64,000 bases of DNA, from positions 682,001-746,000 of the forward strand of contig NZ_VFOU01000001.1 in assembly GCF_006716305.1 (NCBI RefSeq), given 5' to 3'. Shown here in pieces: positions 4,768 to 43,364 of the stretch. The stretch's first letter is position 1. Every line of letters begins with the position of its first letter. The position numbers and the translations under genes were made by a program. The stretch is from Enteractinococcus coprophilus (GTDB lineage: Bacteria > Actinomycetota > Actinomycetes > Actinomycetales > Micrococcaceae). The notes below the pieces were generated by a model. That model searched no databases and was not told the DNA's origin. It saw nothing but the letters and a program-made list of their open reading frames with translations.

Positions 4768-5032
4768 TCATGACGCTCAAACCCCTCGTTTTCCTTGCCA
4801 CAGTTGAGCCAGGTCACAGGGAGAGCTATAGTGCTTTACAGAATCTTGAGATCCGGTGCACAGCCCTAGCTACCCGGACAGCAACCCTCTCACCGTAGTG
4901 GGGTGCTCTAGGTGATGATTCGGTCCAGCGAAAAATCCTGGGCAAGTATGGTGCCTCTCACTGAAGCTCCCCTGCAAGGGCGAGCAGTCGTGTGCGGAAG
5001 TGCCATGAACTTTCCGAAATGAGTAAGAACTT

Positions 5033-16595: not shown

Positions 16596-17789
16596 TTAGG
16601 CAGGATCCTCAGGACTAATAACCTTCATGATCCGATTCAGGTCGTCGACTGAAGCAAAATCAATCGCAATGCGACCCTTCTTGGCTCCTAATGTGATTTT
16701 CACGGAAGTGTCCAGCAAGTCGGTTAGCGAGGATGCTAATTCGTCGAACTGCCGTGCATTCCGTCGAGCTGAGGTAGGAACCTTCGATGCATCTTCAGAA
16801 TTCTTCGCCATGAGGTTGGCTAATTCTTCCGTAGACCGTACTGACAGACCCTCATTAATGACGCGCTGCGCGAGCTGAATCATGACCGCTTGATCAGACA
16901 CCCCGAGAATAGCGCGAGCATGACCTGCTGAGAGAACACCAGCAGCCACCTGGCGTTGGATGGCAGGAGGCAAGTTCATAAGCCGCAAAGTGTTGGAAAT
17001 GTGGGGTCGAGACCTACCGACGCGCTTGGCTAGAACGTCTTGAGACCAGCCAAAGTCTTGCATGAGTTGCTGGTAAGCTGCGGCTTCTTCGAGTGCGTTG
17101 AGCTCACTGCGGTGAATGTTTTCGAGTAGCGCTTCACGCAGCAGATCTTCATCAGCGGTGTCCCGCACGATTGCCGGAATGGTCTTTTTTCCCGCGCGTC
17201 TACTTGCTCGCCACCGACGCTCGCCCATGATGAGCTCATACTGCCCCTCAGTACTCGTGGGCCTGACGACCACGGGCTGCAGCACCCCAACTTCGGTGAT
17301 AGAGGCCACGAGCTCACCCATTGCCTCTTCATCAAATTCCTCACGAGGTTGGCGAGGATTCGGCTGAACGTCATCAAGGGCAATCTCGCGCAGCAGGCTT
17401 TCGTCGTGCGACTCCGGCTCAGCAACTGACGGTTCATCGAACGCTGGGAGAGTGGGACGTTCTAAAATTGGATTCGGCATGGAGGCCCGGTTCGCCTTGT
17501 TGCGTGCAGGCTGGCGACTGGGGCTCGGGTCATCACCGAAAAACAGATCAGCAGGTCTCCGCTTTTCGCGTGCCGGCTTCATTGAGTCCAAATAACGCGA
17601 TCCAACGTTCTTTGATGACTGATCTTTTGTTGGTGCAGTGGCAGCAACCGAAGTATCACCGGATGTTGTAGTAGGTGTTTTATCTGCCACTTCTTCAGCA
17701 GATTCCTCATCCGTGACCGACGTATCTTGTATAAGGGCACCTAGACCTCGCCCTAACCCCCGACGATTCTTGTTGGGCTGTTGTGTCAT
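16596..17789 (-). CDS. parB: Chromosome partitioning protein ParB
   Basis: A CTP-dependent DNA clamp that loads at parS sites and organises the origin with ParA and SMC. RRGLGRGLGALI at the N-terminus is the conserved ParA-interacting peptide. The ParB/Srx domain includes QPNPRQPREEFDEEAM and the GERRWRASRRAGKKTIPAIV CTP-binding box. The parS-binding HTH is GWSQDVLAKRVGRSRPHISN. A C-terminal dimerisation segment follows. I chose ATG 17789 (MTQQPNKN), which has GGAGGAG just upstream. The frame is open 13 codons further but without such a site. Length 397 is normal. The nearest parS (a 28-bp palindrome at 17858) lies about 70 bp upstream of the start, so self-regulation is plausible. Unusually, parA is not adjacent. 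Confidence 0.95.
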   Translation of the reverse strand: MTQQPNKNRRGLGRGLGALIQDTSVTDEESAEEVADKTPTTTSGDTSVAATAPTKDQSSKNVGSRYLDSMKPAREKRRPADLFFGDDPSPSRQPARNKANRASMPNPILERPTLPAFDEPSVAEPESHDESLLREIALDDVQPNPRQPREEFDEEAMGELVASITEVGVLQPVVVRPTSTEGQYELIMGERRWRASRRAGKKTIPAIVRDTADEDLLREALLENIHRSELNALEEAAAYQQLMQDFGWSQDVLAKRVGRSRPHISNTLRLMNLPPAIQRQVAAGVLSAGHARAILGVSDQAVMIQLAQRVINEGLSVRSTEELANLMAKNSEDASKVPTSARRNARQFDELASSLTDLLDTSVKITLGAKKGRIAIDFASVDDLNRIMKVISPEDPA

Positions 17790-17857
17790 GAAGCTCCTCC
17801 CGTCCTCCTCGCACACTCGCATGAACAATGATAAGTGTAGCTGCTCTCACGCAACCC

Positions 17858-17885
17858 CTCCGTTGTTTCACGTGAAACAACGGAG
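17858..17885. promoter_or_regulatory. parS site 1 in a 28-bp perfect palindrome
   Basis: The core TGTTTCACGTGAAACA (17864-17879) matches the bacterial parS consensus. The symmetry continues perfectly for six more bases on each side, through CTCCGT/ACGGAG. It lies just upstream of parB and so may also act in parB autoregulation. Confidence 0.95.
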
Positions 17886-18152
17886 TTTATGCCACCGGAA
17901 TACACTTCCTGGCCAGTTACGGCCACCTAAATGCACCTATTTCCAGCCAAGGCTGACACTCAATGTACCAGCCTTGGAGTCCAGATGAACGGCCCGTGAG
18001 GATCAGATAGGGGCGAGCTACAGTGAAACACAGTGACGCGATAAGTGAGGGGCTGACCACTCGTCCCTCTGAGCAGAAAGCACGGCGTGACTCGCACTCC
18101 GGTCCAGACATACTGGAAGCCACACGCGTGCTTTACTGGCTGGCCTCGGACT

Positions 18153-18174
18153 CAGCGTTTCACGTGAAACGCTG
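18153..18174. promoter_or_regulatory. parS site 2 in a 22-bp palindrome
   Basis: The core CGTTTCACGTGAAACG is flanked by CAG/CTG, giving a perfect 22-bp palindrome. Confidence 0.95.
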
Positions 18175-18247
18175 CGTCGACTTTTGCGCTCATAAGCATC
18201 CGCGCATCTGGGTAACCGTCGGATCAACGGAAGTGGTCCTGTCACCG

Positions 18248-18261
18248 GTTTCACGTGAAAC
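18248..18261. promoter_or_regulatory. parS site 3
   Basis: The 14-bp perfect core GTTTCACGTGAAAC with no extended symmetry. Confidence 0.93.
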
Positions 18262-18394
18262 ATACATGTGTGGCCGCGGAGACCGAGTGCTACTCGTCGC
18301 CTTCCCATAACGTCCTGTCATCCTTTAAACCTCGACCGCTCAGTCCATGCGACCAGAGATAGGCAAAGTGAACGCTGAGATGTGCGGGGGTAAG

Positions 18395-18418
18395 AGCTCG
18401 TTTCACGTGAAACGAGCT
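18395..18418. promoter_or_regulatory. parS site 4 in a 24-bp palindrome
   Basis: The perfect core GTTTCACGTGAAAC is extended symmetrically by AGCTC on the left and GAGCT on the right. Confidence 0.95.
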
Positions 18419-19720
18419 AGATGTTGGCTCCAAATAAAGACCACCCCGGCTTATCCGGCCTACCCTATCTAAGTAAATCTCGCCCTAATGCGGTGCAAAT
18501 GATGCCCTACGAACAAGGAGGCGCCGCCTTGAGAACGCTGACGAAGACTGCAGGCAGTGGCGAAGTAGTCTCGAACCTATCTAGGTGTAGATCTGTGACA
18601 TGACGAAGCCTTCGGTGGGAGTGACGCTTTCGCAGTAAAGATGAGGTCACCTCAGCATGTGGACGCAGGTAGTCCACGAACGATGCAAGCCCCAGAAATA
18701 AGCTTCGGCTTAGTGTCAGTCACCTGTTTGAACATCGTCGATACGCCCGACCTTCACCGCTGACCTGAGACTACTTGCGACTGGGCCCGCTAACAGACCT
18801 CCGGCCATGGCCGAGTGCAATCCTCGGGCCGGTGATAGGATCCATTGGTTAGTCATCGTCGATTACCCTATAAACCATGAGTGGGCAGCATGCACTGCGC
18901 GGATCTGACTAAAGCTCCGGGGGCATGTGGGTCCTCAACGATCAGATCCACAACTGCATCATTCGAAAGGGGTCATCGAAGACGCGACGCTAAGACACTG
19001 ATGACTCAAGCATTGCCGCACCTGCAGTTTAAGCGGGTGTCGCTGGGTCAATGAAGGTCGCCGTTAGTGCGCATTCGATGTTGCTTCTGATCACTATGAG
19101 TACCAAAAAAGCCTGGCGGGATCTCGCTTCGCCAGCCGTAACCGAGTGTCGCACCGGTAGCACAGTGGCTTGTTCCACGGTCTCCTTCCAGAGGACCCAG
19201 GTAACGGACCGAGCGAACCTGCCCGAGAGCGTAAGGTACCCAAGGTACTAGTCGATCCATTGCGAGCCCCACCGGCGGATAAAATTTCAGTCGATGACCG
19301 TCATTTTTTGCAGAAACAAAACCTATTAAATCAACGCCCGAGTCGGGGGAGAGGGTTGAGCAAGAGCCCTCAACGTCAATACTGCGTGATCATTTCCAGG
19401 CAGCCGCCGGTGGGATTCTAGAAGCATTCGGTAGCTGCGTTAATCCTCAGCCCGTCGTCCAGGAACTCGAGGCATAGGAAATCCTGTACCGACGAACACA
19501 GATATCGGCTTAACATATCTCTAAGACCGCATTACAGCGTCGTGAGCGTAGACGGAATTCTACCTTTGGGAGAGTAAAAGAGCGCACACATGCCGCTTTA
19601 CTGGTGCGGGCCTAACCTAAGGCCGACGTCTCTGCGCGAACTGAAGGTCCCGTGCAGTTCACAGTGGAAGACAACATAGCTGACACTGTCGGCAGGATTG
19701 TGCCAACCTACGCGAGATTA

Positions 19721-19734
19721 GTTTCACGTGAAAC
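19721..19734. promoter_or_regulatory. parS site 5
   Basis: The perfect 14-bp core GTTTCACGTGAAAC without extended flanking symmetry, about 1.3 kb from site 4. Confidence 0.93.
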
Positions 19735-21074
19735 ACCGCCTTGAGACAGCTAATTATTTCTACGCATAGTGCAAGCAACAGCCCAGGTTGTGCGAAGTTC
19801 CCAATCCCTGAGGACCCCATTAAGACTCGACGGTGCAACACTTCAACCCCTTATCTTGAGCTGCAACCGCCCTATTTACTAACTTGCAATAGCTCAACGC
19901 TCCGACTCAGCCATCGTTGCATCCACCAGAGGACCGAGACCGGTTCTCAAGCCACCAGCCAACACAAGAAAAGAGAAGACTGCTAGCTGACCAAGACGTA
20001 CTGATTGAAGTAATCGCAGTTGCATCAAAGGCATCTTGGACTGCTGCCCGAGGGAAATGTAGATCTACGGAAATTATCGCGATCCTTCGATTCTCTCCAC
20101 AACGAAGAGAACATTTGTCTGCGACCACTCATCACCATGCACATGGGTATGAACCGCTTAGCCTCGTCAGTGGCCATGCACCAGGGGGAGGGGAGATGCG
20201 CAGAGCGGACCAAGCGCTACACTCTCCAAGCAGGGGTCCGCGACTCTCCGCGTCCACTGTCAATCGGAATCTCACTCATCTCGAAATCTCCTTTGGTCAA
20301 AAACGACTGGTATAACCCGGGGAGATATCTCGGCATTACCATGGGGTAACATCGAGCACCGACTGCTGGTGATTCCTCATAGATCAGCATTATAGGAATC
20401 AACTCAGATACGTATTCGGTACCAGAAGTTTTCTGAATAATGAGCAACTCGACTTACCCCGCAAGGACATTACTATCAATGACCTTGGTCCACAGCTTTT
20501 GCAGGCTCCGTGGCTGCGTGGAACCTTTAACCCAATAAGACACGAAACCTTTGCTCTCAGGCAGGCTCTTGTTGTGGACGGACAAGTGTTGCCAAAGAAT
20601 TATTCTAATCTGTCAACGGAGAGTGGCTTCCTCGCATGCGCTACTCTGCTTCACGTCCGAAGATGTTCACCTAATGAGAGGATGCTCGCCCGGTGAATGG
20701 AATACATCGTGAAACCTGGAACGCCTTATGAACGCTGCGAGCAAGCATAATGAATATTGACGCCTTAGTTGACGGGTACACATTCTTTGCTTTCGCCACG
20801 GTTGGACTCAGACCTCTATTCCGTGCCGCAAAGTCTATCAATCCAGCTGGCACCGCATCGGCTACGTCCCTGCACTACGGGAAAGCTAATAGGGGAGTGC
20901 CGCTTGCGCTAAAGCATTATGCCAGCACCAGTGCAGAGCATTCTCGTATGACTTCAGGATCCGTGAGGGCTTCGAAAGTACTCTGAACTAGTGGAGCTAC
21001 CGAACTCTGTGATGCTGACACCCGAAAGCTTTGATCGTCGGCAGACCAGCAGGTGGTGCGCCGACGTTTTAGAG

Positions 21075-21092
21075 GTGTTTCACGTGAAACAC
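21075..21092. promoter_or_regulatory. parS site 6 in an 18-bp palindrome
   Basis: GTGTTTCACGTGAAACAC is a perfect parS about 100 bp beyond the parA stop codon. Confidence 0.95.
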
Positions 21093-21192
21093 TACGGATT
21101 ACGGGCCGCATCGAGGGAGCCCAGACGAACTAGGGGCTCAGAGAAGCACCAAGTCAGCAATTTTCATGCATAGTGCTGAGTTTAGGCGTGGT

Positions 21193-22140
21193 CTATTTTT
21201 TAGTGCCGCGTTCGGCGATTTCCATGGCCGCTTCGCGGTAACTGAGCGCACCCGTAGAACTCGGATCATAAGTCAGCACACTTTGCTGATATGACGGAGC
21301 CTCCGAGATTCGCACGTTACGCGGGATGATGGATTTGAGCACCTGTTCCGGAAAGAACTCACGGACTTCTTCGGCAACCTGGACTGCGAGGTTCGTGCGG
21401 GAGTCATACATGGTCAATAGGATCGTCGACACGTGGAGGTTCGGGTTCAGGTGCTGCTGGATCATATCGATGTTTTTAACCAGCTGTGAGAGCCCTTCGA
21501 GCGCATAGTACTCGGTCTGTATCGGGATGAGCACCTCATTAGCGGCCACAAATGCGTTGACAGTCAGGAGTCCCAAGCTCGGAGGGCAGTCAATAAAAAT
21601 ATAATCAATACGCGGCATCGCATTGGCCTCGCGGTGTTCGAAGTACCGCTTCAAGGCGCGCGTGAGTCGTTGCTCCCGGGCCACCAATGATACGAGCTCA
21701 ATCTCAGCACCGGCAAGGTCAATCGTTGAGGGCGCTACGTAAAGGTTGTCAGTCTCCGGGTTTTCGTAAATGACGTCCTTGAGATCCCAATCCTCAATGA
21801 GCACGTTGTATATCGAAGGTGTACCCTGCGGGTGTGGAATATTTAGAGCCGTGGACGCATTGCCCTGAGGGTCCATATCCACGACCAAGACGTTCATACC
21901 CGCTCGCGCCATCGCGGTTGCCAGGTTTACAGTGGTGGTCGTTTTCCCTACTCCACCCTTTTGGTTGGAGATCGTGATGATACGGGTCTTATCCGGTTTG
22001 GGCATACGCTTGGTCTTGAGCCTTTCACGACGTCTATTTTCAGACTCCAATTGGCGAGCAAGAGGCGTGGATGCAACGATGGAAGACGTCTCTTCCAATC
22101 CACGTGAAACGTTATCTTGATCGACCAAGCCAGCCTCCAT
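21193..22140 (-). CDS. parA: Chromosome partitioning ATPase ParA
   Basis: A deviant-Walker ATPase that moves ParB-parS complexes. The P-loop SNQKGGVGKTTTTVNLATAM carries the signature lysine of the ParA/MinD family. VVDMDPQGNAST forms the A' box, YIFIDCPPSLGLLTVNAFVA the B motif, and IPIQTEYYALEGLSQL the switch region. The 315-residue length includes a basic N-terminal extension, as expected for actinobacterial chromosomal ParA. The alternative start after this extension is unlikely because NVSRGLEETS is conserved in relatives. It follows rsmG by 33 bp on the same strand, so it is probably the last gene of the rnpA-yidD-yidC-jag-rsmG-parA transcription unit. parB is 3.4 kb away. Confidence 0.95.
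   Translation of the reverse strand: MEAGLVDQDNVSRGLEETSSIVASTPLARQLESENRRRERLKTKRMPKPDKTRIITISNQKGGVGKTTTTVNLATAMARAGMNVLVVDMDPQGNASTALNIPHPQGTPSIYNVLIEDWDLKDVIYENPETDNLYVAPSTIDLAGAEIELVSLVAREQRLTRALKRYFEHREANAMPRIDYIFIDCPPSLGLLTVNAFVAANEVLIPIQTEYYALEGLSQLVKNIDMIQQHLNPNLHVSTILLTMYDSRTNLAVQVAEEVREFFPEQVLKSIIPRNVRISEAPSYQQSVLTYDPSSTGALSYREAAMEIAERGTKK
22099..22112. promoter_or_regulatory. Degenerate parS inside the parA 5' coding region
   Basis: AATCCACGTGAAAC matches 11 of 14 positions of the parS core, with the right half perfect. It overlaps the codons for NVSRG. It could be a weak ParB site or just the conserved coding sequence. Confidence 0.4.
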
Positions 22141-27241: not shown

Positions 27242-27903
27242 AGATATTACGCACTCGTTGTTGAATCAGACAATAAGGGTTTAACAGGCGGTTAAACCCG
27301 GATACCTTCAAGTTAAGGTTGAGGGCTAGTCCACATACCCCCAGTACCCCTATTTCCGCTCGTGCTTGCTGAAACAGCGCTCCGCAGTAAACCGGGGTCC
27401 ACGGTAATCCACAGGTTTCCACAGACTTATCCACACTGAAGATTAACTCCATTATCCACGTTGTGGATAAGCCTGTGGATTCTTAAGGGATAAGTGGAAT
27501 AGAGTTGCGGATAACTCTATTAATCGGTGGAATTACAACGATGTAACGAGTTTGGTCCTGCACAGCTTGCCCACAAGCGAATCGAGCGCCCTGCACTTTA
27601 ATCTCCACAGCAAATTCGTTATAGGGGTGCGGATGCACAGGCTTTTCCACAGTATCCACACCACCTACTATTACCCCTATTCCTTTAAACACCTCTAAAT
27701 AACGATGGGCTGACCATTTTGAACTCGACTCACTGAAAAAGAGGTTTTCTCGTTTGCACCAAATAACCCCGAAAGACACCACTTGTGTCGCATGCGTCCC
27801 TAAAGCGCGCTAAGCTAACTAGCGCACCTCTATAAATTCAGGTGCCAACGTATTATCAACGGCAATTTGCATTGCAAGCACTCAACGGGAAGGCAGACTC
27901 TTC
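27242..27903. other. Chromosomal origin of replication (oriC)
   Basis: A 662-bp dnaA-dnaN intergenic region, the standard place for actinobacterial oriC. Perfect DnaA boxes (TTATCCACA) lie at 27427-27435 (plus) and 27462-27470 (minus). Near-matches are at 27405-27413, 27415-27423, 27452-27460, 27474-27482 (minus), 27643-27651 and 27652-27660, the last two adjacent. The pair at 27452 and 27462 forms an inverted repeat. An A/T-rich stretch near 27675-27705 (CCTTTAAACACCTCTAAAT) is a plausible unwinding element. dnaN starts right after. Confidence 0.92.
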
Positions 27904-37238: not shown

Positions 37239-39998
37239 ATGAGTGGGTTCGAAGCTCCGGTGGTGGCTGCCGGATCGCGCCTTTTCGGTATCTTAACCGC
37301 AGCAGCTATACAGAAGCTTACTCAGAGCTGGTCCTTCCGTTGGTCTGTGTGGTTGAGGGTGCGGAAAAGAATCCCGGTTAAATTTTCTGGTAAAGCCTAT
37401 CGACGATGGCTTAAGACCTTAACATTAGAAGCACTTCAGACCCCGGTAGAAGAAGCTTGTAGCTCCTTAGCGAAGCAGCTCAACGAGATGCTAATCAGGC
37501 ACGGAAAGGGTTGGGATGAGAATGATGAACATCTTTCGCATGCCCTACGCCTGGTAGAGGTGACTTTTCCGGCAATTGCAGGTGCACTGCGCGATCGGGA
37601 AAGATCTGAGCTAAGTGAAGCTTGGGCACAGCAACGAAGCTTGAATGTAAGACAGTTGCTTCTTGAAATTGCAGGACCAGGCCCGTCCTTAAGTCGAAGT
37701 GATTACGCCCGGATTCTGAACTATCGCTCAAAAGCACGTCGAGCAGTCCGGTTGCAAGCGTTTAACGTAGATGAAAATGCTTTAGGCTCTTTCTTTGAAA
37801 GCATCCAGGTACCGGATGTACCTGTGAGCTCAGTGAAGGTCCTTGTTGGAGATTTCGGTTCGGGCAAGTCAGAATGCGCAGAAATCTGGCATCGACAGGA
37901 GATTAAAGCATACTCTGATGAAGAAGGTGCTCTTCCAATCTGGTTACACGCATCTCATTTACGTGATCGTGCCATTGAAGAAGTGATAGAAGCGCAATAT
38001 AGTTCCGTATGGCGCGAAGGATCCGGGGCGTCTATGGTGGTAGATGGTTTGGATGAGACCGATCCTGCACGGGCGTACCAAATCTTAGATGAGGCACGAA
38101 TACTAGTAAGAACATATCCCCACTTACGGGTGCTCATGACGGCACGTGCCGGTCTTTTTCCCGAGAGTTCAATCGAAACTGAAGTAGTACTAATGCCCCT
38201 CTTATCTCTAGAGACGGCATTAGCTTTGGTGCAAGAACTAGGCGGCGCCCGTGTGAGCATCAGGACCTGGTCCTCGAGTTTACAGGCTTCGGTTCGGCGC
38301 CCATTTTTCGCTCTCTCAGCTGGAAAAGTGTTAGCGGAAGACATTGCTGTTCCGAATGAGATAGAGCTCATACGACGTATTGTGGAGGAAAGCCTACAAC
38401 AAGGTATTGAAAGACATTCTGTAACCTCAGACAAGATTTTTACAGTGCTGCGGAAACTTTCAGTTTCACTTACCATGAGTGACGAGTCCACGCTGTCATT
38501 TAGCGAGCAACAGATTGCTAATTTAAGTCGCCTTACTACAGAAACTCATGATGGACAGATACGTTTTTCTTTGCCGATATTCGAGCAGTGGTTTGCTGCT
38601 CAATCGCTACTTTTAGATGAAGAGTTAGTAAAACAAATCCTCATAAACTCCAGTGTATTTATGCGCTGGCGTTGGGTCATGCCTCTCGCCATCCGTTGTG
38701 CGCATTCGTCTCAAGCAATCGACGAGTTGTTATCTACCTGGGTCATCCAAAATCCTGGTGTAGTTTCGTGGATATTAAAAACGGCTTTTGGAACGAATCA
38801 CGACTGGCGGAAGAAAGGGGACGATCGGCTCGATCCGATAACTACAGGGGAACGCTTCTTGCGTGTTTATCGCACGTGGTGCAACAGTTTCGGAGATATG
38901 TCTGTCAGGTTAGCACTCCCCGTGATGGAGCGGCCCGTAAGTTTAGGGGTCGCTCTCTCCGAACATTCAGTCAGATTTGAATTTAGACCATCTGGTTCTG
39001 CACGTGACCATGTATATGAGATAGCATCCGGAACTCACCCTAGCCGCACTGTAGACAGCCCCCTCCTAGTGATTCGGGGCGGTCTTGCAGCTGGAGATGC
39101 TTGGCCCTGGATAATGCTGTGGCGGATGATGGCTAGGGAGGTTGAAAATCTTCTATTGCATAGTCCCTACTTAGGATCTGATGATGGAGTGTGGATAGAA
39201 GAGCATCGATACGATTTAGCAGACCGAATAGTAGATGAGCCGCCTCTATTGATGTTTGGGCGAAGGCTGAGTGCGGACAAAGCCAAGCTTAAAGCGCAGA
39301 AGTTGTTAGAAAGACTAGAAGATGCTCAAGCAGACTCCATCGCTATTAATCGTTCGAGACCGTATGCGCGGTTCGAAATCTCAGAATTCATTGAATGGTT
39401 AGATCAGCAGGCATCTGGATATGTTACGTCGGGCCTTCCCGGTTATGCAGGACATGACTCATTAGGTGGGTACCTCTTTAAATTTGAATCTAAAAAGCAG
39501 TTCATGGAATTTGAAGTTCTAGTTTTCGAACGTGCTTGTCTCGCTTATGAAGAAGCCATTAACCACACCTTTAAATCCTTAGGGTGGTCTTTGTCTAGCT
39601 CGGTGCTGGTACCGTTTGGAGTAGTTCTAGAGGTGGTGTTTGAGCCGGAAAGGGCGGTTACTAACCGGCCTTTTATCGAAGTAACTAGAGTCCCCCTATC
39701 GTTACTTGCTGATCTTGCGCCTGGGGGTGCGGATTCTTTATGGTCTCCGTCAGGGCGAGCTGTAATGGTTGAACGTCATGACAGCTCGGAGGGGCTAGAT
39801 TATTCCCAAATGGTGCAACAGATACGTTCCCGGCTCATGAGTGAGAACAGGGAGCCTATTGCAGGTTTATCTTGGTCAAGCAGCGTAGCGGAGGAGATGG
39901 ATAAGCGGCGGCCTGCGTCGCATATCGCTATTGAGTGGTTATGGAAAGATTTTGAAGAGTTGGGTCTCGTGCGCAGGGGGCGTTCACTTTTGCGTTAA
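37239..39998 (+). CDS. Large NACHT-type STAND ATPase, candidate anti-phage NLR-like protein
   Basis: A 919-residue protein with a central NTPase: Walker [12 protein letters not shown] (about residues 201-211), Walker [12 protein letters not shown] (about 265-275) with a second acidic pair typical of NACHT/STAND ATPases, and sensor-like [11 protein letters not shown] (about 297-307). The winged-helix end reads [17 protein letters not shown] (about 440), matching the F-x-H/P-x-x-x-x-x-x-FAA pattern at the end of NACHT modules. The N-terminal 190 residues are helical with no recognised nuclease, protease or TIR effector. The C-terminal 450 residues lack obvious TPR/WD40/LRR repeats and could be the sensor. 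The gene stands alone between a long hairpin and a decayed hsdM. Its base composition is lower in GC than the neighbouring housekeeping genes. Bacterial NACHT proteins are known phage sensors; a defence role here is inference from fold and context. Confidence 0.8.
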
Positions 39999-40730: not shown

Positions 40731-43364
40731 CTAGATCAGTACGTCGTCACAGTCCTCAGTGCTCGGTTTGTTGAGGACGTTAGCCTTCATAATTCGTGAG
40801 CCCGTGTACATTACATACTCGACCCCCGATTCGACAGCCATCTCCTCGGCGGCTCGTGCCTTTGCAAGCACGAGTTCATCATCGATCTGGTGATCGCCCT
40901 TCACCTCGACAAGCTGCCAGGAGTCGTCTTCCATCTGTGCCACGAAATCTGGATAGTAGAGACGTATTCGCTTGGATGCTGGGTCGTAGTATTGGATGCC
41001 GAGGTCGCCTTGGCGGGCAGTGAACATGCCGGTGAAGTACACCTCTTTGACCTGCTCAGACTCGACGTACTGCCAAAACATTTCCATCTCGGGATTCGAG
41101 TCGAAGCAGTAGGTATCTGCATGGAAACTCTTGGCTCGCTGATTGTCGGTGAGTCTGTCATCGTTGTACTCGACGACGAGGTTCTCATCGGCGCGGAACT
41201 CGTAGTACCCTGCGTTGGCAGGTTGGCGGAGGAGCACCAGTTCCTTGTCTTCACTACGCACAGCGCTGGTGAGATCGTAGAAGGCGTGGAAGATCGTGGG
41301 GATGATCTTGTCATGGATGACGTCGTTGTACCTGTTGACGACCTCGACGATGCGCTCGGCGCCGTCCTCAGACTCGTTCAGGATTCGGTGTATTAGTAGT
41401 GGTGATCGATTGAGGTAGCGCGAGACTTCTGCGGTCAAGGTGTATAGCGAATAGGTATCCATCTCTCGCAAGTCGTCGATGTTGCGTTCCTTGACTTTGG
41501 TAGCTGAGGTGATGCGCGACTTCTCGTAGACTAGCGCCTGGTATTTCTCCTCTAAGGCTGCGTCGTCGGTCAACTCGAAGTTCAGCGGTTTCTGGTAGTC
41601 CTTCTCAATGAGTTGGTATTCGCGCCAGATGCGCTTCAGTGTGATGGTCCGCTCCGGTGGGAGGACACGTACCTGATAGGTGCGCTTCGGTTTAGGATCT
41701 TTCCTGGTAAGGCCGTCGAGGTCCATATTGAAGTTCTTCTCTAATTCGGCATCGAGGATGTCGAAATTCTCCTTGGACAAGAATACCAAGGCGGTTTGTT
41801 GTTCGTCAGTGATCTTCCGCAAGCAGCGCATGGTGGCCTGAAGTACGAAAATCTTTGACTTCGGCGATCGGTACATCGCGACGCCGAACAGCGAACGACA
41901 GTTCCAGCCCTCGCGGCCTTTGCCGACGAGGATAATGAATTGCTTCTCGTTGCCGACGCTGCCAGGAACGTCAAGATTGTTGAAGTTGCGGATATCTTCG
42001 TCTTTGGTAACCTTCGCGTCTCCCACATTGACGAGGATCTTTGAAGAATCCACGCCAAGATCTGCGAGTACGTTTTCCACTACCGGACGTACTTCTTCGG
42101 TTGCTTCTTCGACAGTGGCAGCGAAGATTGCGAGCTTGGGGTTCAGGTCTTCGAAAGTCTGGCCCTGGTATTTCTGCCAGAACTGCGTGATCGCAGTACG
42201 CAAGAACTCTTCGTTCTTTACATTCTCGAAGCCCTGAGGCTTGGCATCTTTAAGGAAGTCGTTCCGGATGGACTCTGCCAGGCCGTATCCGTAGACGACC
42301 TCAGGTAGCGGCTGCCGGTTCACATAAGGAGTGCCGGTGTAGTTGAAGCACGCCACGACGTCGGTTCTGCTCGCGAGCAAGTTGATAGTGTGACGCAGGC
42401 TCGTTTTCGTGGCGGTTTTGGAGCGGAGGTTCTTCTCCAACCTTGCCCCGAAAAGATGGTGGGCCTCATCAACGTAGACCCCGAGCTGGCGTAGTCGGGT
42501 GAGCTTTTGGAACCTCTGGTTTTCCATTAGCGTCTCGTCATCCACGACATCCTCTTCGCCGTCGTTGGCGTCCGTGCCATAGAGTCCCGAAAGAAGGGAA
42601 TTCGAAGACAGGTTAAAGAGTTTTGCGGCAGCTGAGTCTTGAGTGTGCTTCTTCTTCACCACGATCTTCTGGGTATTGGAGATCACGATGTTGAACGCGG
42701 AGTCATCCAACACGTTGAGGGTTACACCTGGGTCATCAAGGAACGCGAACTTGATGTTGGCGTCCAACACACGTGCGTACTCGGGTGGAACCACTTTGGT
42801 CTTGTCGAAAGTGACGATCTCCCGCAACGATTCCAGCACGGTCTTATCCGGCGCGAAGACCAGCGCATTGTGGACGAAGCGCTTGTCCTTGGGATACTTG
42901 TTAGCGAGCAGGAACTCGTAGAAAATGCACGTCGCCATGAGTATGGTCTTCCCCAAACCCATGGTCAGCGCGTAGATATAGTTCGGGTAGTCCTCCTGGA
43001 ACTTCTTCATTTTCTTGAATAACGCATCGGTCTGTTTCTCGGTGAAATCGTCCATCAGCATGGCTTGAGTCTTGTGGCGCGTGTAATAGGAGCGTTCCGA
43101 GAACACTCCTTCACGGTTACGCCACTCGTCAAACACCTGAGCGACCTGGCGGTTGTCCAAGAATTCTTTGAAGAACACGTAAATTTCGAGTGCCTCGAAC
43201 TGCGGAAGACGTAAGAACGCTCTCGGGTTCTCTGAGGGGTCGTTATAGGCGAGGAACTTGCGCGTCAGGTCGTTATACCGAGAGCGGATTTTGCCTCGGT
43301 TCTGGGTATAGAACAGCCATAGCTCGTTGTAGAACGAGAACGACTCTTCGAACTTGACTACCAT
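40731..43364 (-). CDS. Type III restriction endonuclease subunit Res (helicase-nuclease)
   Basis: The ATP-dependent translocating and cleaving subunit of a type III restriction system, 877 residues. The SF2 helicase core has Walker A TMGLGKT (about residues 134-140), the DEAH box VYVDEAHHLFG (about 297-306), and a later motif VI-like region QATMRCLRKI. The C-terminal nuclease shows the PD-(D/E)xK pattern: YPDFVAQ (about 804-810) followed by LVEVKGDHQ (about 818-826). It begins three bases after the Mod stop, so translation is coupled. Length and order match the type III family. Specificity cannot be read from the sequence. Confidence 0.92.
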   Translation of the reverse strand: MVVKFEESFSFYNELWLFYTQNRGKIRSRYNDLTRKFLAYNDPSENPRAFLRLPQFEALEIYVFFKEFLDNRQVAQVFDEWRNREGVFSERSYYTRHKTQAMLMDDFTEKQTDALFKKMKKFQEDYPNYIYALTMGLGKTILMATCIFYEFLLANKYPKDKRFVHNALVFAPDKTVLESLREIVTFDKTKVVPPEYARVLDANIKFAFLDDPGVTLNVLDDSAFNIVISNTQKIVVKKKHTQDSAAAKLFNLSSNSLLSGLYGTDANDGEEDVVDDETLMENQRFQKLTRLRQLGVYVDEAHHLFGARLEKNLRSKTATKTSLRHTINLLASRTDVVACFNYTGTPYVNRQPLPEVVYGYGLAESIRNDFLKDAKPQGFENVKNEEFLRTAITQFWQKYQGQTFEDLNPKLAIFAATVEEATEEVRPVVENVLADLGVDSSKILVNVGDAKVTKDEDIRNFNNLDVPGSVGNEKQFIILVGKGREGWNCRSLFGVAMYRSPKSKIFVLQATMRCLRKITDEQQTALVFLSKENFDILDAELEKNFNMDLDGLTRKDPKPKRTYQVRVLPPERTITLKRIWREYQLIEKDYQKPLNFELTDDAALEEKYQALVYEKSRITSATKVKERNIDDLREMDTYSLYTLTAEVSRYLNRSPLLIHRILNESEDGAERIVEVVNRYNDVIHDKIIPTIFHAFYDLTSAVRSEDKELVLLRQPANAGYYEFRADENLVVEYNDDRLTDNQRAKSFHADTYCFDSNPEMEMFWQYVESEQVKEVYFTGMFTARQGDLGIQYYDPASKRIRLYYPDFVAQMEDDSWQLVEVKGDHQIDDELVLAKARAAEEMAVESGVEYVMYTGSRIMKANVLNKPSTEDCDDVLI

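Follow-up and report, generated by a model that had tools for sequence, protein, structure and literature searches.

In Bacillus, Caulobacter, and Pseudomonas, parA and parB are neighbors on the chromosome, with parS sites dispersed within genes and near them. Corynebacterium glutamicum has ten parS sites, nine of them intergenic, and their centromere and condensin-loading function was demonstrated by ChIP-seq and Hi-C (PMC7083940). These sites are distributed across a 35-kb region that lies 73 kb from oriC (PMC7083940), and the case shows that a mostly intergenic parS cluster can be a centromere (PMC7083940). ParA is a repressor at the parAB promoter of class Ia plasmids, and in Pseudomonas tests a parS near a promoter with bound ParB led to lower expression (PMC7022226). 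Few examples of ParB autoregulation of chromosomal parB are given in the same review (PMC7022226).

The window, i.e., the whole stretch of 64,000 nucleotides that was analyzed (G000:C1:682001-746000), comes from a 2.88-Mb genome, and its ParA is 94% identical to that on contig NZ_LXEY01000109 of Enteractinococcus helveticum, which places both in the same genus. The gene order is trxB, trxA, parB, the interval, parA, rsmG, jag, yidC, yidD, rnpA, dnaA, and dnaN (names other than parA and parB were given by inspection). ParB has the ParB_N, HTH, and C-terminal dimerisation domains (PF02195, PF17762, and PF23552) of the ParB family, while AAA_31/CbiA spans residues 52-287 of ParA and the 51-residue N-terminus of this protein had no HTH family match in the domain search. 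The start codon of parB was fixed at ATG 17789 by its RGLGRGL motif and by alignment; the interval therefore begins at 17790 and not at 17829, a boundary of the original prediction that reflected an upstream TTG start. The two genes do not form an adjacent or overlapping operon, being separated by 3,403 bp (Table 1).

Table 1. Features of the par locus (positions in the window).
Feature	Positions	Strand	Basis and remarks
parB, GGAGGAG ribosome site	16596..17789	-	Pfam ParB_N, HTH_ParB, ParB_C; ATG at 17789
Gene-free interval between parB and parA	17790..21192		3,403 bp; ORF, codon-model, and domain-search evidence
TACACT, candidate -10 of the parB promoter	17834..17839	-	TANNNT at the same place in 8/8 genus members
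parS 1, adjoins parB	17865..17878		Exact 14-mer; -10-like hexamer 25 nt downstream; 7-bp extra palindromic arms
parS 2	18157..18170		Exact 14-mer
parS 3	18248..18261		Exact 14-mer
parS 4	18400..18413		Exact 14-mer
parS 5	19721..19734		Exact 14-mer
parS 6	21077..21090		Exact 14-mer; ~100 bp past the parA stop codon
parA, 315 aa	21193..22140	-	Pfam AAA_31/CbiA; ORF map
Degenerate parS in the first codons of parA	about 22098..22111	-	One intact half-site, GTTTCACGTGGATT; perfect in two relatives
Probable oriC, between dnaA and dnaN	27242..27903		Two exact DnaA boxes; at least 6 kb from the parS cluster

The arrangement is a variant of the known ParABS system. It shares ParA, ParB, and canonical 14-16-bp parS sites near oriC with the chromosomal systems of Bacillus, Caulobacter, and Pseudomonas, but all of its sites are packed in one gene-free spacer that splits parA from parB. 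The C. glutamicum cluster is likewise actinobacterial and mostly intergenic, whereas the present one is more compact, with six sites in 3.4 kb that contain no genes and lie between parA and parB. Autoregulated plasmid par operons resemble it in having a partition-protein site at a par promoter (PMC7022226), while the candidate site here is a parS before a chromosomal parB that is putatively promoted separately. No paper on a gene-free parA/parB spacer or on parS in parB terminators was found in the open-access literature.

The parS 14-mer, GTTTCACGTGAAAC, has six exact copies in the window, all inside 17790-21192, in agreement with the six perfect cores originally reported between parA and parB. 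It had also been claimed that every non-degenerate parS of the window lies in the interval, and this in fact holds for the whole 2.88-Mb genome, where no exact or one-mismatch site was detected outside it. The proposed genome-wide scan with two mismatches gave only control-level numbers elsewhere (10 sites per strand versus 8 for the reversed pattern). The canonical sites are thus enriched near oriC over the rest of the genome, 6/6 of the exact ones lying within 10 kb of dnaA-dnaN. The interval itself was rejected as an additional oriC; it has a single weak DnaA box, and the DnaA-box cluster is at dnaA-dnaN.

That the interval holds no credible gene was borne out by ORF lengths, coding scores, and searches of Pfam, NCBIfam, and Rfam. 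Its longest ORF is 132 aa, compared with a mean longest ORF of 136 aa in first-order shuffles, and its best codon-model score was 2.2 (shuffle mean, 3.4; parA, 31.0; parB, 14.5; training set, 74,355 codons from the same genome). None of its ten largest ORFs matched a Pfam family, the one NCBIfam match among them was insignificant, and no Rfam family matched within the interval. In the 464 kb sampled around the locus (the window and 400 kb of genome stretches), no stretch lacking a 140-aa ORF is longer than the one in this interval (3,364 bp; runner-up, 2,160 bp). Two parts of the window, at 36.3-40.7 kb and 48.0-51.9 kb, were considered as larger gene-free gaps and rejected, as long ORFs with unusual codon use are present there. 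When the six-frame peptides of the interval were compared with 1.9 Mb of sequence from relatives and its own genome, nothing significant was found, the matches being mostly parS-derived strings. A decayed gene was rejected on the lack of a peptide match in relatives, an RNA element on the empty Rfam result, and a mobile-element or plasmid origin on the lack of blastn matches in plasmids and phages and of tandem repeats in a tandem-repeat search. The repeats of the interval are essentially the parS copies.

This arrangement is real and genus-wide. All eight genus members having a par locus carry a spacer of 1.7-3.4 kb, its length being 1,684-2,872 bp in six other members. For E. helveticum, whose contigs break within the interval, only a lower bound of about 3.08 kb is available; a ninth genome (71% complete), whose assembly contains neither parA nor parB, was left out of the eight. 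The eight genomes have 54 exact parS sites, of which 52 are in the spacer and two in the first codons of parA, a position that is perfect in two members and has one mismatch in two others. Each spacer contains 4-9 sites spread along its full length, with additional one-mismatch sites in several members (G008 has four, G004 six). Between species, the spacers are alignable only at parS and over ~110 bp before parB, as expected at saturated divergence; the four-fold degenerate sites of parA match at only 0.34 when the window genome is compared with its sister. Perfect 14-mers have been kept at this divergence, and parS is therefore under selection. Conservation of interval length and parS spacing, for which a comparison of relatives had been suggested, was not observed; the length range is two-fold in the genus, and the exception is the parB-adjacent site. 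A fixed parS-parA distance was rejected (range, 23-232 bp). The idea that each parS of the genus has an extended palindrome was likewise rejected, since arms of at least 5 bp occur at only a few sites, all of them in the window genome or its sister.

The split had been regarded as an oddity among relatives having parA and parB adjacent or overlapping. This was half true: many relatives do have short gaps, but gene-free spacers with parS are common in the family. According to parA and parB positions in 138 sampled genomes of the family, 46 have a gap of at least 800 bp (estimated from alignment ends for genomes that were not read directly), and the median gap reaches this length in 10 of 32 genera; in the others, gaps range from almost zero up to a few hundred bp. 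Among 18 further long gaps that were read directly, 15 have no ORF above the 95th percentile of shuffles (G095, one of the other three, is level with it) and 16 contain 2-9 exact parS sites. The gene-free, parS-bearing spacers of the family are 0.8-4.6 kb long. In the ParA+ParB tree, the genus belongs to a clade of 13 rows, 12 of them with long gaps; more long gaps are found outside this clade, and at least three changes of gap state are forced by well-supported branches. The genus of G024 has a 98-bp gap although it lies inside the long-spacer clade. Given this spread of long gaps over the family tree, the split is an old trait that recurs in the family rather than a peculiarity of one genome. 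Many family members have a short gap and parS in coding DNA and do well, so that ParB loading does not in general depend on a gene-free state. The two long gaps with no exact parS at the locus read are those of G161 (L229) and G143 (L240), both from other genera, in which diverged parS sites are possible. A 6.8-kb gap in G072 (L239) contains nine parS sites and also a 420-aa ORF.

The parB-adjacent parS begins 82-90 bp ahead of the parB start in 8/8 genus species, and a TANNNT hexamer starts downstream of it, at a distance of 24 nt in six species and of 25 nt in the other two. A hexamer at this distance was found at 8/8 parB-proximal sites versus 0/100 other parS sites and orientations; this parS is thus fixed relative to a promoter-like element that is conserved in relatives. 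If the hexamer is taken as a -10 element, parS extends from about -50 to -37, with its center near -43. From a site centered there, an activator is able to touch RNA polymerase, or a repressor to block the -35 contact. The geometry is suggestive of a separate parB promoter with parS near -43, and the natural reading is that ParB probably acts on it. Independent regulation of parA and parB, as implied by the original prediction, is therefore supported in part: a candidate parB promoter with its parS/-10 block is present in every species, but no recognizable -35 consensus was seen there, and a simple sigma-70 scan made no promoter call at the site. The same geometry was not seen in other long-spacer genera. 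For its part, parA is probably expressed from an rsmG-parA unit, because only 33 bp separates the two genes in the ORF map. No clear terminator was seen 3' of parA, which leaves room for transcription of the interval as a long 3' UTR of parA. With its fixed parS/-10 geometry, the block before parB lends itself to a simple reporter assay of chromosomal parB autoregulation by ParB.

Taken together, we think it likely that the interval is a gene-free ParB-loading centromere with a parB promoter that is probably touched by ParB. ParB, whose binding is predicted from the exact canonical sites and the canonical ParB sequence, would load at the six parS sites, and its clamps would spread from there; the interval, 6-10 kb from oriC, probably also serves SMC loading. 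Transcription across it would be low, and the lack of genes would be of benefit. Selection would preserve the parS cores and a sufficient amount of spacer, but not the spacer sequence. The split would give parB a promoter of its own, and because parS 1 adjoins the -35 position, lying just upstream of it, ParB, either bound or sliding, may act on its own synthesis. The dedicated ParB-loading platform that had been proposed is well supported by comparison: the interval holds the sole parS cluster of the genome and is gene-free, and both properties are kept genus-wide despite divergence. More tentatively, parts of the Micrococcaceae may have evolved dedicated gene-free centromeres that are maintained as such, together with their parS sites, although their sequence is free to change, and this genus may in addition have a ParB-operated parB switch through a promoter-fused parS at about -43.

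Alternatively, the spacer could be unselected filler derived from lost genes or insertions, with a length of no function and parS sites that happen to accumulate there. Its failure to align between species, its two-fold length variation in the genus, and the short gap of G024 inside the long-spacer clade would agree with such an origin. We nevertheless consider it unlikely, since long spacers persist in 8/8 genus members and in 10/32 genera at saturated divergence, bacteria usually delete useless DNA, and no pseudogene trace emerged from the six-frame comparison. The spacer might instead serve mainly to separate two transcription units, rsmG-parA and a parB with a ParB-controlled promoter, the other parS sites sharing the room. 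The parS/-10 block in all eight species and the closeness of rsmG and parA speak for this, whereas ~100 bp would suffice for a promoter in place of 1.7-3.4 kb, 4-9 parS sites are spread across the entire spacer, and the -10 geometry was not seen in other long-spacer genera; we regard it as somewhat less probable again than filler.

Unrecognized small genes or a non-coding RNA in the interval are quite improbable. ORFs of up to 132 aa are present and the gene-free calls are sequence-based, but the coding scores are below those of shuffles, the ORF lengths are shuffle-like, and neither a conserved peptide in relatives nor an Rfam match was obtained. Least credible of all is an assembly artefact, either a chimera or an insertion error; the contigs of E. 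helveticum do end inside the interval, but independent genus assemblies, including the single-contig G006, share the architecture. The family also bears on the open question of whether ParB clamps and SMC loading are impeded by transcription and genes. Some of its genera have gene-free spacers of 1-4 kb and related ones have tight parAB with parS in or beside coding DNA, which provides a natural comparison.

In short-gap relatives, parS is often located 2-100 nt past the parB stop codon, where it caps a long hairpin (loci L163, L166, L168, L174, L179, L180, L182, L184, L193, and others). In 14/25 genomes the hairpin arms continue past parS for 6 bp or more, and their sequences differ while complementarity is kept (197 paired positions versus 99 expected with the arms re-dealt; maximum, 133 in 1000). 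These extended hairpins often precede a T run, and parS has apparently been merged into the parB transcription terminator in these relatives. In contrast to many of them, the parB terminator of the window genome (16540-16590) looks like a long hairpin without parS.

Elsewhere in the window, two long ORFs sit behind two tRNA genes. One of 919 aa (37239-39998) has a P-loop-like motif and differs in codon use from the rest of the genome, and the other, of 877 aa (40731-43364), has a helicase-like motif; this region is possibly a mobile or defence island. A SAM-IV riboswitch (Rfam RF00634, 76.5 bits) is found at 4842-4954.
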